A DNA stretch of 64,000 bases, taken from Microbacterium imperiale (lineage in GTDB: Bacteria; Actinomycetota; Actinomycetes; Actinomycetales; Microbacteriaceae). The stretch covers positions 1,116,001 to 1,180,000 of the forward strand of contig NZ_JAGIOK010000001.1 in NCBI RefSeq assembly GCF_017876655.1. Direction: 5' to 3'. Each line of letters begins with the position of its first letter. The stretch's first letter is position 1. The translations under genes were made by a program, and so were the position numbers. This document shows positions 4,691 through 61,833 of this stretch, in pieces. The notes beneath the pieces were generated by a model, which had not been told where the DNA came from, did no database searches, and saw only the letters and a program-made list of their open reading frames with translations.

Positions 4691-5761
4691 TCATTTCTTC
4701 GGCCGGGCGATCTCGCGCCACAGGTCGACCGTCTCTTCGGCCGCGTCGTCGTGACGCGACCGTCCGACCACCGTGACGGCGGTGTCGGGATGCGTCGAGG
4801 TGCGGATGTAGAGCCGCTCTGATCGGGCGCCGTCGAGGATCGTCGCGAGCTCGGCGCGGATGGCCGCGAGCTCGCGCTCGTCCAGTCCGTCGAGCCCGCC
4901 CTCGTCGAGGAACGTCACGTGCGAGCCCGTGCGGCGCACCTCCTCGAGCACGCGGCGCACCGCGTCGTCGAGCAGGCGGGGACCGCGCAGCTCGTCGCGC
5001 AGCCGTCCCTCGGCCAACCGCGCCTGGAGGCGCTCGTCGTCGTCGAGCGCTCCCCCGGCGGCGATCGTGCGCGAGAGCACGGGACCGGCCACCGCGAGCG
5101 CCCGCTGGACGCGCACCCGACGCTCGCGGCGGCGCCCCTCCTGCGTCGCGAGCCACTCCGAGGCATCGCGCTGCAGCCGCGTCAGCTCCGCCGTCTCGAC
5201 GGCGGCGCGGTCGATCAGCAGCACGATGATCTGCGCCCCGCCCACCCAGATCGCCGAGCCCACCGCTCCCAGCGACAGCGTGGGGCCGATGCCGATCCAG
5301 ACGACCGACCCGACGAACATCACCGCCACCCCGGTCCAGGCGATGAGGGAACGCCGACGCACCACGAGGATGGCCAGCAGCGCGCCGAGGCCGCCCAGGC
5401 TCCAGGTGGCGAACGTCTGCAACCGCCCCTCCTCGCCTGCCGCCCACCACGTCGCCGAGGGGATGACCGCCGTGACGGCGAGTGCGAGCAGGGCGATCCA
5501 CAGGGGCAGCGGCGCCGGGCGGCTCAGACCGGCGGTGACGGCCGTCACCGCGCCGCCGACGGGGTGGGCCTGTTCGGCGGCGGCCATCGGCCGCGTGGGC
5601 CAGAAGATGCAGAGACCGGCGACGGCGAGGTACACCACGAGGGTCAGCACCAGCACCACCGGCGAATCGACGGGCCGCGTCCAGAACATCCCGCCGACGG
5701 CGAGGTAGCCGGTGAAGGCGACGCCGAGCGCGGAGAGGACCCAGCGAACGGAACGGTTCAC
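4691..5761 (-). CDS. Membrane protein of a two-component operon, unknown function
   Basis: About six hydrophobic segments fill the first ~190 residues. A cytosolic part of about 160 residues follows, containing an Arg/Glu-rich helical stretch (EGRRRERRVRVQRALAVAGP) and an alpha/beta-looking end with LDEGGLDGLDERELAAIRAE. The arrangement resembles a sensor kinase, but no catalytic His, N-box or DxGxG motif is visible. The GTG at 5761 is chosen because it forms a GTGA overlap with the kinase stop; the next upstream start at 5776 would overlap more. It is the third gene after response regulator and kinase, so a link with that signalling pathway is inferred. I do not recognise the family. Confidence 0.6.
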   Translation of the reverse strand: MNRSVRWVLSALGVAFTGYLAVGGMFWTRPVDSPVVLVLTLVVYLAVAGLCIFWPTRPMAAAEQAHPVGGAVTAVTAGLSRPAPLPLWIALLALAVTAVIPSATWWAAGEEGRLQTFATWSLGGLGALLAILVVRRRSLIAWTGVAVMFVGSVVWIGIGPTLSLGAVGSAIWVGGAQIIVLLIDRAAVETAELTRLQRDASEWLATQEGRRRERRVRVQRALAVAGPVLSRTIAAGGALDDDERLQARLAEGRLRDELRGPRLLDDAVRRVLEEVRRTGSHVTFLDEGGLDGLDERELAAIRAELATILDGARSERLYIRTSTHPDTAVTVVGRSRHDDAAEETVDLWREIARPKK

Positions 5762-24820: not shown

Positions 24821-24866
24821 CCCCGCGACGCCCGGGTGGGTGGCCCGGGCCGGCGGCGGCTCGCGG

Positions 24867-24942
24867 CAACTCCTCAAATCCGCGAGGTTTCGCGCCCGAT
24901 CTGCCGGCCTGACGGTTCGAGCCCTCGGGTCTTGAGGAGTTG
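24867..24942. repeat. AACTCCTCA-family palindromic element, copy 1
   Basis: Perfect 11-bp inverted ends (24867-24877 with 24932-24942) enclose a variable interior with a small CGCGA-GGTT-TCGCG hairpin. The core from AACTCCTCA to TGAGGAGTT is 74 nt, the same as copies 2 and 3. It shares ATCCGYGMGGYTTCGCG just inside the left end with copy 2. Confidence 0.8.
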
Positions 24943-24993
24943 GCGACGGCCCGGCCGGGGTCCGGCGCCCCAGCGGTGGGCCGCTACGGCGGA

Positions 24994-25037
24994 CCCAGCG
25001 CCCGCGACGGCCCGGCTACCGGCGGGCGGGCGCTGGG
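24994..25037. repeat. 12-bp inverted repeat between element copies 1 and 2
   Basis: CCCAGCGCCCGC (24994-25005) and GCGGGCGCTGGG (25026-25037) are perfect inverted arms around 20 nt. It is unrelated in sequence to the flanking elements and would form a strong hairpin. Confidence 0.6.
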
Positions 25038-25072
25038 CCCGCGGCAGCCGGAATCGGCGATGGCTCGGGCTG

Positions 25073-25148
25073 TAATTCCTCAGATCCGTGCGGCTTCGCG
25101 GCAGAACGGCCGGTGTGGGGGCGTCGGACGTCGGGTTATGAGGAGTTG
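25073..25148. repeat. AACTCCTCA-family palindromic element, copy 2
   Basis: The left end is AATTCCTCA (one change, compensated by a G-T pair in RNA) and the right end TGAGGAGTT. The core is again 74 nt. The interior aligns without gaps to copy 1 over the first ~17 bases and then diverges. Confidence 0.75.
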
Positions 25149-25261
25149 GCGCGGCGCAGCGGCGGAGCCACCGACGCCTCCCCAAGAGGCAGCCGCGGCG
25201 GCCCCTCCCCCGCGGGCCGTCGTGGGGGGCCCGGGCGGCCCGGCTGGCGCAGACTGCTCGC

Positions 25262-26065
25262 GTGCTTCCGACCGACTGGATGAGCGCCGACGACCTGCGG
25301 CTCGGTCGCGCGGAGCTCGCCCGCGCCCTCGGTTCCGGCCAGCTCGTGCGCGTGCGGCGCGGACGCTACCTTCCCGCAGCCACGCATCCCGACGTCCTGG
25401 CCGCCGCGCGTCTGGGATGCCGCCTCGACTGCGTCTCGCTGCTCCGCGCGGCCGGCGTCTTCGTCCTCGAGCACCGGTCGCTGCACGTCAACGCCCGCGT
25501 CGGCGCGAGCAGGCTTCCCCCGGCGCCCGACGGTGTCGTCCGGCACTGGCGCCGCGATGCCGACCCGCCGACGTCGGTCCTGTCGGACATCGTCTCGGCC
25601 TTGGCCCAGTCCTGCCGCTGTCAGGAACCCCGCGCGGCGGTCGCGACGCTCGACAGCGCGTGGCACCAGCGGATGATCGACGCCGGCGACATCGCCGAGA
25701 TCTTCCGCCGCCTGCCACGTCGCTATCGCCGGTTGCGGGCGCTGCTCGACCCGTCGGCCGAGTCCGGAGCCGAGACGCTTCTGCGCCTCATCCTCCGGGC
25801 GCTCGGATGCCGCTTCGAGACCCAGGTCGTCGTCGAGGGAGTGGGCCGCGTCGACTTCCTCGTCGAGGGATGGCTCATCATCGAGTGCGACAGCGAGGCG
25901 CACCACGCCGATTGGGCCACGCTCAAACGCGACAAGCGACGCGACCTCGCCGCCGCCGCGCAGGGGTATACGACCGTCCGCCCGCTCGCCGAGGACATTT
26001 TCCACCACCGCGACGTGCTGGCCGAACAGCTGCGAGCCGTGCTGGCCAGCCGGCCGTCGCGCTAA
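25262..26065 (+). CDS. DUF559/Vsr-like nuclease-fold protein with AbiEi-type N-terminal winged helix (paralogue 1)
   Basis: This 267-residue protein has an N-terminal winged-helix-like stretch (ADDLRLGRAELARALGSGQL, RRGRYLPA). Its C-terminal restriction-endonuclease-like core has ESGAETLLRLILRAL, GVGRVDFLVEGWLIIECDSEAHH and a basic helix, that is, the E...D...E-x-D arrangement of Vsr/DUF559 nucleases. It closely resembles the product of 43154-44035. No methyltransferase or toxin partner is adjacent. A CAGACT box ends 6 nt before the GTG, suggesting a leaderless transcript. Its TAA stop lies inside palindromic element copy 3. Catalytic activity is not proven. Confidence 0.75.
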   Translation: MLPTDWMSADDLRLGRAELARALGSGQLVRVRRGRYLPAATHPDVLAAARLGCRLDCVSLLRAAGVFVLEHRSLHVNARVGASRLPPAPDGVVRHWRRDADPPTSVLSDIVSALAQSCRCQEPRAAVATLDSAWHQRMIDAGDIAEIFRRLPRRYRRLRALLDPSAESGAETLLRLILRALGCRFETQVVVEGVGRVDFLVEGWLIIECDSEAHHADWATLKRDKRRDLAAAAQGYTTVRPLAEDIFHHRDVLAEQLRAVLASRPSR

Positions 26066-26142
26066 CTCCTCACATCCGGCAGCCCGGCGCGGCGCTACCT
26101 CGTCGAGAGAGCCGAGGGCGACCGATTCTGAGGAGTTAGCGC
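26059..26142. repeat. AACTCCTCA-family palindromic element, copy 3
   Basis: Perfect 14-bp inverted ends (26059-26072 with 26129-26142). The 74-nt core is bounded by AACTCCTCA and TGAGGAGTT. The left arm supplies the TAA stop of the nuclease-fold gene. It lies between convergent genes, so it may also end transcription. Confidence 0.8.
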
Positions 26143-26186
26143 CCCGCGCCTAGCGCCCCGCCCACCGGGCCGCCGACGGCGGGCGG

Positions 26187-42998: not shown

Positions 42999-43064
42999 AC
43001 GGCATCCGGCGGCTCGGTAGGGTCGGAAGGGTCGGTCGCAGCGCTGTGTCCCGTCGGAGATGTC

Positions 43065-43133
43065 CCGTCGACAGGCTGAGCGCCGTACTCATCGCCCGCT
43101 GAGCCCCGGAGACCGCGCTGAGCCTGTGGACGG
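43065..43133. repeat. GTCGACAGGCTGAG-family inverted repeat, copy A
   Basis: The left arm CCGTCGACAGGCTGAGCGC (43065-43083) pairs with the right arm at 43115-43133 at 17 of 19 positions, around 31 nt. It lies between the SseB-like gene and the 3' end of the second DUF559 gene. The preceding TGTCCCGTCG is also present as a nearby direct duplicate. Confidence 0.75.
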
Positions 43134-43153
43134 CACAGCTCGCGCGTTCGACC

Positions 43154-44035
43154 TCAGCGACCGCGAACCGGCTGCGGTCCGCGCGCGAGGAGCCCGCGAA
43201 CAGCTGCGAGCACCCGCTCCGGCCGCCACATGATGTCGGCGGCCATGGGTCGCAGCGTCACGTACCCCAGGGCGGCCGCCGCCAGGTCGCGTGCGCTGTC
43301 TCGGCGACGCGCGTCGAGTCCGGCGTGGTGGGCCTCGCTGTCGCACTCGACGATCAACCAGCCGTCCACGAGCAGGTCGACGCGTCCGACCCCGGCGATG
43401 CGCACCTGCACCTCGACCGTCCGGGCTATCCCCCGCAGCAGCAGGCGCATGAGCGTCTCGGGTCCCGATTCCGCCCGCGCATCGATGAGACGCCGCAACG
43501 GCGAGTACTTCACCGGCAGAGCCGCGAAGACGACGGCGAGATCGGACTCATCCAGCACTCCCTGGTGCAGGGCGCTGTCGATCGTCGCGACGGCCGCGCG
43601 CGGCGGCTGGCACTCCACCGCCCGCACGACAGCATCGACGATGCCCGAGCACACGTGATGCCGGGCGCGCGGATCGAGCGGCGGCGTCCAGTGCAGCACG
43701 GGTCGCTCGAAACGGTCACCGGCGATGTCCGGCACCCGCGACGCGGTGCGGGGCAGTTGGACGTGCGGACCGCTGCGATCGAGCACGAACACGTCCGCCA
43801 GCCGCAGCAAGCTCACGCAGGTCAGCCGGCCACCCAGGGCAACGGCCGTCACGACCGGCTCCGGGACGTCCGCAGCCAGGTACGACCCCCGACGCGGACG
43901 GAGGAGTCGCCCGGCGGCGACCGCCTCGGCCATGTCGCGCTTCCGAAGGCCGTCAGCGCGCAGCTCGGCCGACGACCATCGCCGCAGATTCAGGATCTCG
44001 GCGGGGTGCGAGGGCGACGCGGTGCGATGGCTCAT
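43154..44035 (-). CDS. DUF559/Vsr-like nuclease-fold protein (paralogue 2)
   Basis: This 293-residue protein is related over its full length to the product of 25262-26065. The N-terminal winged-helix-like part is RWSSAELRADGLRKRDMAEA, RRGSYLAA. The nuclease-fold core has ESGPETLMRLLLRGI, GVGRVDLLVDGWLIVECDSEAHH and RDSARDLAAAALGYVTLRPMAADI. The ATG at 44035 is chosen because a CACGGT box ends 6 nt upstream; the open frame continues through repeat copy B to 44212 without homology. It has no obvious partner gene and is bracketed by two inverted repeats of one family. Confidence 0.75.
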   Translation of the reverse strand: MSHRTASPSHPAEILNLRRWSSAELRADGLRKRDMAEAVAAGRLLRPRRGSYLAADVPEPVVTAVALGGRLTCVSLLRLADVFVLDRSGPHVQLPRTASRVPDIAGDRFERPVLHWTPPLDPRARHHVCSGIVDAVVRAVECQPPRAAVATIDSALHQGVLDESDLAVVFAALPVKYSPLRRLIDARAESGPETLMRLLLRGIARTVEVQVRIAGVGRVDLLVDGWLIVECDSEAHHAGLDARRRDSARDLAAAALGYVTLRPMAADIMWRPERVLAAVRGLLARGPQPVRGR

Positions 44036-44134
44036 CCGGACACCGTGCCGCGACGCGTGCGGGCTCCCGCCGGCGGCGGCCCGAATTGTGAGCCGTTCGC
44101 CGCCGTCAAGCGTTGGGGGTGCGGCGACGTCGTT

Positions 44135-44210
44135 GTGCCGTCGACAGGCTGAGATAGGCGCCCGCCCGCGAATCCCGACCCTAAGCGGGCGCTGAGCCTG
44201 TGGACGGCAC
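44135..44210. repeat. GTCGACAGGCTGAG-family inverted repeat, copy B
   Basis: The left arm GTGCCGTCGACAGGCTGAG (44135-44153) pairs with 44192-44210 at 17 of 19 positions; the same two positions are mismatched as in copy A. The interior adds GCGCCCGC (44158-44165) facing GCGGGCGC (44185-44192). It lies upstream of the second DUF559 gene. Confidence 0.75.
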
Positions 44211-44221
44211 ACGCACCGGCT

Positions 44222-61733: not shown

Positions 61734-61833
61734 GCGCCGTAACTCCTCAGAGCCGCGCCGCCTGCGGGCCCGGGTCGGCGAGGTGGCGCGGGTCGGGCCG
61801 GGCGGCACTGCCGGAACTGAGGAGTTACGGCGC
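61734..61833. repeat. AACTCCTCA-family palindromic element, copy 4 (solo)
   Basis: Perfect 16-bp inverted ends (61734-61749 with 61818-61833), the longest of the four copies. The core from AACTCCTCA to TGAGGAGTT is 86 nt, 12 more than the others. No nuclease gene is nearby. It lies between convergent genes and could act as a terminator. Confidence 0.8.

Follow-up and report, generated by a model that had tools for sequence, protein, structure and literature searches.

The window analysed here, a stretch of 64,000 nucleotides from Microbacterium imperiale, contains a gene for a predicted nuclease that is surrounded by palindromic elements of constant length. The gene, the three elements around it and a more distant copy are listed below by window position; no strand is assigned to the elements.

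24862..24947, no strand: element 1, a 74-nt core (24868-24941) with six outer bases on each side; arms AACTCCTCA/TGAGGAGTT
25068..25153, no strand: element 2, 74-nt core at 25074-25147; left arm AATTCCTCA
25262..26065, + strand: AbiEi-like/Vsr-like nuclease gene (DUF559, MTES_1575), 267 amino acids, named from profile matches and a model fold
26058..26143, no strand: element 3, 74-nt core at 26064-26137; overlaps the stop codon TAA of the DUF559 gene
61735..61832, no strand: dispersed element of the 86-nt class, core at 61741-61826, between a helix-turn-helix protein gene and an AlkZ-like gene

An earlier note on this DNA had described three elements of exactly 74 nt with inverted ends, two before the gene and one directly after it. 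All three are present in that order, and the left arm of element 2 carries a single mismatch; the 86-nt element at 61741-61826 had been overlooked. No exact arm pair arose by chance in 100 shuffles of the window. The outer six bases, which were assigned to the arm by covariation in the sets of 90 and 187 elements described below, pair at 3/6, 2/6 and 5/6 positions in elements 1, 2 and 3, and at 6/6 in the 86-nt element. Folded as single-stranded DNA, three of the four window elements were more stable than shuffles (z of -3.7, -0.9, -4.2 and -5.2).

The genome of this strain (G000, 3.17 Mb) contained 18 elements with exact AACTCCTCA...TGAGGAGTT ends, which measured 73/74, 85/86 or 96 nt. Seventeen had a gap of 46-76 (74 nt, ten; 73 nt, two; 86 nt, four; 85 nt, one), for which the reversed control gave none, so that copies above chance, set beforehand as a test, were obtained. 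The 96-nt element was the single further pair from a search with gap 68-98, which yielded 5 pairs in G000 and 2 in the reversed control. Exact AACTCCTCA half-sites numbered 47 and the reversed word 15. A scan of named genomes revealed the same element across Microbacterium, in at least 119 stretches. At loci with a GC content over 62%, and with only lengths of 72-75 and 85-87 nt counted, there were 90 non-redundant exact elements of 74 (54), 73 (18), 86 (12), 75, 85 and 72 nt (two each); the matches of AT-richer genomes, which were scattered in length, were left out as background. The view of end-defined elements of constant length was thereby supported. In a Bacteroidaceae metagenome-assembled genome (L028, 705-3529), AACTCCTCA-ended inverted repeats of 94-136 nt were also seen, which are probably unrelated.

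In the 90 elements, pairing extended beyond the 9-base arm by exactly six positions (0.63-0.76, expected 0.35-0.46). The same six positions paired at 0.60-0.82 (expected 0.33-0.57) in 187 elements selected only by AACTCC/GGAGTT, and outer pairing ended sharply after the sixth base. The motif NATCCG inside the left end had been taken as a sign that all elements lie in one orientation. This was not so: read inwards, either end of the 90 elements follows one consensus of roughly GA(A/T)(T/C)CGG, where no clear covariation was seen, and the element is therefore symmetric.

The interior of the 74-nt class showed A/T maxima near positions 12, 22, 33, 42, 52 and 63, with a period of 10.0 and a power of 0.34 (largest of 2000 shuffles, 0.041). 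Fifty-five elements with other arms had their maxima at the same positions (period 9.9, power 0.36; largest of 1000 shuffles, 0.034), and the 73-nt class had a period of 10.2 (power 0.31 vs. 0.12). In the 86-nt class the period peaked at 11.6 in Microbacterium (n = 13) and at 13.8 in genome G130, and the class has a conserved centre. Helical steps were accordingly dropped as a universal rule, and the 86-nt class is not the 74-nt class plus one turn. Its centre, as in L272, is quasi-palindromic (about CCSCG..AT..CGSGG), was not seen in the 74-nt class and is possibly a third site. The lengths of 74 and 86 nt are reminiscent of class I and class II tRNAs. A tRNA-like or other structured RNA was nevertheless rejected, as the interiors displayed no convincing covariation and no element in 16 loci matched Rfam; the sole match there was a thiamine pyrophosphate riboswitch away from the elements.

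The link between DUF559 genes and the elements, which the earlier note had proposed from this one locus, held across genomes. Elements with the same arm occurred on both sides of the gene at 12 of the 20 loci from the genus and at 12 of the 28 from the family (29 loci, one excluded as too short), compared with 13 of 3998 random segments. A gene counted as bracketed if one 8-mer inverted-repeat arm recurred to its left and right within 600 bp, and the controls were 750-bp segments taken mostly from loci containing elements. Arms are called below by the three bases that follow AACTCC, which are TCA in G000. Exact TCA-arm pairs were patchy (9/59 genus genomes), and in one of the nine, G050, they belonged to a different 65-nt repeat. 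This other, more complete palindrome repeat comprises three 65-nt palindromes with AACTCCTCAAGTCTCCGAC-type arms (G050:C11:45397-45929). MTES_1575 matches (E up to 0.001) were found in 59/59 genomes, over the family cut-off in 29. The conclusion of no link that these counts had invited was abandoned because homologues in genomes without TCA elements have other arms. Next to homologues in other genomes, elements of this kind had the arms AACTCCTTC, AACTCCACG, AACTCCACC, AACTCCTGA, AACTCCGGA, AACTCCTGC, AACTCCTCC, AACGTCGGC and AACGTCGCC, and other Microbacteriaceae genera had still different arms. At the level of the order, 13 of 30 loci showed a common 8-mer arm on their two flanks within 700 bp, several of these being in genomes already counted. 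Only two of nine loci from other families did so, one of them convincingly (L303), and an extension beyond Microbacteriaceae was not upheld.

Where the two could be compared, the dispersed copies carried the arm of the gene-flanking ones. The suffix-free pattern AACTCCN{61,63}GGAGTT matched 42 of 59 genus genomes (reversed control, 2). Among the matches listed, G056 had GGA on both arms in 9/9, G000 had TCA on both arms in 12/13 and on one arm in the thirteenth, G013 had TTC on both arms in 6/8 and on one arm in 2/8, and G043 had ACG on at least one arm in 6/6; G001 was mostly GGA, and TGC and TCA both occurred in G045. A background of unequal suffixes is present among genomes with one to three matches, and G008, G010, G017, G028 and G038, with 14-17 matches each, were counted without arm readings. 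In the 187 elements from fetched loci, the suffix was equal on both arms in 152 (59.9 expected); 95 of these were TCA/TCA, the arm used for choosing loci, and without TCA/TCA the count was 57 of 92. In other genera, TAACTCNNGC copies numbered 19 in G130, 16 in G128, 12 in G142, 10 in G170 and 4 in G108, with none in seven other genomes and none for the control in all 12; a few copies in G128, G142 and G170 deviated from the main suffix. The arm beside the DUF559 gene equalled the dispersed arm wherever both were known (G000, G013, G043, G056, G045 for TCA, G130, G128, G142 and G170). Partner genes for the TGC arm of G045 and the arm of G001 were not located. Protein and arm thus appear to change together across species, as if in lock-and-key fashion.

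Arms also differed at orthologous sites. Twelve genomes have the gene beside adenosine deaminase at one shared locus (in 11 the stretch includes adenosine deaminase, in L161 the other neighbours), where the element suffixes were TCA, TTC, ACG, TGA, ACC and GGA. In an ABC-ATPase gene, a 73-nt element was present at eight loci, 15 codons past the start of the Walker A motif GKTTLL in L147 (element at 5088-5160; homologues L027, L133, L209, L178, L077, L079 and L112). Six of the eight had TCA arms, G043 had ACC/ACG and G033 had GGA; the codons in the arms changed with the DNA (NSS, NST, NSG), and the element is translated as a variable insert. Five further homologous pairs had differing arms (L216/L022, L210/L056, L217/L084, L224/L041 and L226/L069). 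Among 406 homologous-site comparisons, which are redundant since loci overlap, a lenient test recognised an element in 363, of which 200 differed in arm, and none in 43.

Gain or loss of copies between species occurred as well. Outside the DUF559 locus, only four neighbour-gene pairs (at least 50% identity) were shared among 165 neighbour genes of nine genomes. Some relatives had empty sites, as in L071 vs. L078 (gap of 105 vs. 7, flanks 83 and 89% identical), and the empty sites examined showed no evident target duplication. Within genomes, 9 of 437 interior pairs exceeded the between-genome 99% point (4.4 expected), including one strong local pair. Recent dispersal by copying was therefore unsupported, and movement or processing of the elements by the nuclease, which the earlier note had suggested, stays hypothetical. 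As interiors were no more alike within a genome and some sites were empty, copies seem to come and go slowly; arm, length and phase are kept over this turnover. Since orthologous sites also persist with changed arms, the sequences favour maintained sites that would follow the specificity of the protein, rather than recent copy-and-paste. In G000 two TCA elements enclose an ASCH-domain gene (L136, 4640-5328), whereas M. thalli has a single element there (L036); this gene was possibly gained between elements.

The window protein scored 26.1 bits against PF04480 (DUF559), above the cut-off of 20.6, and 30.2 bits against PF18741 (MTES_1575), below the cut-off of 38.2; NCBIfam had no name for three homologues. 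In its AlphaFold2 model (mean predicted local distance difference test score 95.5), residues 7-163 matched the AbiEi antitoxin fold and residues 165-266 matched I-Bth0305I, 3hrl and Vsr. The model thus joins an AbiEi-like module to a Vsr/I-Bth0305I-like nuclease; the Vsr domain of MTES_1575 is named in passages of PMC3710099. Residues E171, D198, E208, D210 and H215 were invariant in 42 homologues. The residues best correlated with the arm, kinship being ignored, included 33 (in the wing), 76-83, 256 and 265. Within the genus, R33N was present in 4/4 proteins whose element arm is ACG/ACC and in 0/17 others tested; it also occurs in L251 from another genus, whose arm differs.

A second homologue lies in the same window, with its own pair of elements.

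43057..43141, no strand: second-family element beside the second homologue; arm GTCGACAGGCTGAG / GTCCACAGGCTCAG
43175..43957 (hit coordinates, not the full open reading frame), - strand: second DUF559/MTES_1575 homologue, 51% identical over the hit
44134..44211, no strand: partner second-family element on the other side of the homologue; same arm

This homologue scored below both the DUF559 and the MTES_1575 cut-offs. Under the pattern searched, its two elements were the only copies of arm GTCGACAGGCTGAG in the genome, and bracketing is therefore possible without dispersal. The flanks of this locus matched nine loci (L158, L165, L167, L168, L169, L171, L172, L285 and L289; 80-87 and 69-77% identity), with arms AACGTCGGC, AACGTCGCC, AACTCCTGC, AACTCCTCC and AATGCAGG.

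By gene calls from a simple codon-usage script, 37 of 113 elements lay between convergent genes, 45 between tandem genes and 6 between divergent genes, while 14 overlapped a predicted gene and 11 were at locus edges. The 329 intergenic spaces of at least 90 nt at the same loci comprised 67 convergent and 91 divergent ones. Dispersed copies are mostly 3' of genes. Elements of two specificities stood side by side, about 20-30 bp apart, in L231 (8004-8171), L234, L235, L066 (1845-2048) and L038 (5504-5671).

We consider it probable that the gene and its elements form a two-part, co-evolving nuclease/palindrome system, in which the layout of REPIN-RAYT (REP, repetitive extragenic palindromic; RAYT, REP-associated tyrosine transposase) is made from unrelated parts. 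Sequence comparison shows genes bracketed by elements, dispersed copies with the cognate arm, arms that changed at orthologous sites and a phased interior, and the model adds its fold matches; binding, bending, nicking and an effect of the dispersed sites on the cell are what we infer. An AbiEi-type DNA-binding module (about residues 1-163) would be fused to a Vsr/EDxHD-type nuclease (about 165-266), and the protein would bind the palindromic element. In the latter, six outer paired bases, the 9-base arm and an inner GAWYCGG would make up a half-site of about 22 bp, and two such half-sites, inverted, would be spaced by a fixed number of helical turns. Each half-site would most likely be occupied by one of two protein molecules, which would bend the duplex in between, like AbiEi on its 23-bp repeats; such bending would account for the 10-bp A/T rhythm of the 73/74-nt class, and the nuclease would act at the bent element. 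The elements bracketing the gene would be the core, as operator and/or candidate primary substrate, and probably control the gene or serve in the latter role. Further copies would be kept as cognate sites, their arms changing as the specificity of the protein shifts; they may serve the cell, buffer the nuclease or be spreading slowly.

Duplex binding leaves the covarying outer six bases unexplained, and they suggest that the element is at times folded. An improbable extension is that the Vsr-like nuclease keeps the elements palindromic, arm mismatches in a folded hairpin or cruciform being nicked and patched. If this were true, it would explain why arms pair over 15 bp though the outer six vary between elements, and arms could be rewritten in place genome-wide upon a change of specificity; the element would be a self-copying mark written by the nuclease, not a transposon.

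Several other explanations were weighed against this co-evolving system. A pure network of binding sites for an autoregulator or chromosome-organising factor, with the nuclease domain incidental or rarely used, is a possible account, though a less probable one. AbiEi-type operators are inverted 23-bp repeats, two window elements lie upstream of the gene, the spacing is helical with a bend signal, and the sites are old and maintained; however, the scarcity of elements between divergent genes and their location mostly 3' of genes are not those of repressor sites, and the active-site-like residues are invariant. It is rather unlikely that the elements are REPIN-like and mobile, nicked or cut and spread by the DUF559 nuclease from the bracketing pair as the source. 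Such an origin would agree with the REPIN-RAYT-like layout and copy numbers, with dispersed sites that mostly differ by species, with presence and absence between related species (L071 vs. L078) and with the one local duplicate pair (L136), but not with interiors that are no more alike within genomes, arm change at orthologous sites or empty sites that bore no evident target duplication.

That the elements act as RNA hairpins, either terminators or processed RNAs, is very unlikely, even though the outer six arm bases covary, three window elements are more stable than shuffles when folded as single DNA strands and copies lie 3' of genes. TTTT within 12 nt occurred on 0 of 374 sides, and ordinary U-tract terminators, which the earlier note had listed as a refuting outcome, are rejected; besides the lack of Rfam matches, the inner half-site consensus is symmetric without covariation, the 10-bp rhythm is of duplex type, and one element lies within a coding sequence. 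That a common gene family and a common repeat are neighbours by chance, which the ubiquity of MTES_1575 beside patchy TCA pairs might have indicated, has a negligible probability given bracketing far above the control and the identity of arms per genome.

A REP/RAYT-like layout with a different protein family, as the earlier note had drawn it, was supported by the comparison with known systems. According to passages of PMC3116915, REPIN-RAYT elements have inverted ends at a preferred spacing and a variable spacer of constrained length, lie outside genes and form a type-specific cluster beside the protein gene. The present elements likewise have two inverted ends, fixed spacing and a variable spacer, and their cluster adjoins the gene of the cognate protein. 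That protein is AbiEi-like plus Vsr-like rather than an HUH Y1 transposase, and the 74-nt interior has duplex phasing without an excess of recent copying. Y1/HUH transposase PF01797, and with it any RAYT, was absent from 16 carrier genomes (0/16; 5/14 control genomes positive), and the system is therefore not a REPIN-RAYT member.

Passages of PMC7319586 report that AbiEi recognises a pair of 23-bp inverted repeats with a gap of 3 bp and causes the DNA to bend, and that the gap within the repeat pairs of Rv2827c is 13 bp. The fold of residues 7-163 and the half-site of about 22 bp resemble these, whereas here about 42-64 bp separate the half-sites, and elements occur on both sides of the gene and dispersed. 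Unlike in type IV toxin-antitoxin systems, a nuclease domain stands in place of the partner toxin gene. The four window neighbours tested by Pfam are metabolic genes (mannitol dehydrogenase, alpha/beta hydrolase, adenosine deaminase and pyrimidine phosphorylase), with no AbiEii nucleotidyltransferase toxin gene among them, and the locus is thus not an AbiE toxin-antitoxin pair. The modelled fold and the conserved acidic and His residues are like those of Vsr/EDxHD nucleases; unlike Vsr or I-Bth0305I, the gene has neither methyltransferase nor intron among these four neighbours and is bracketed by cognate palindromes.

Among the papers listed by searches of an open-access library, none tied DUF559, MTES_1575 or Microbacterium to such elements, and no substrate for this nuclease domain turned up. 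The same searches brought up no description of a fused protein bracketed by cognate palindromes and none of arms switching in place, so that the system appears new; REPIN-RAYT is its nearest working analogue. Many such genes come with a candidate substrate both adjacent and genome-wide, and about two dozen protein-DNA pairs occur naturally with arms that differ, which makes function, specificity code and the concerted evolution of dispersed sites testable. The REPIN-RAYT layout would have arisen twice, from unrelated components.
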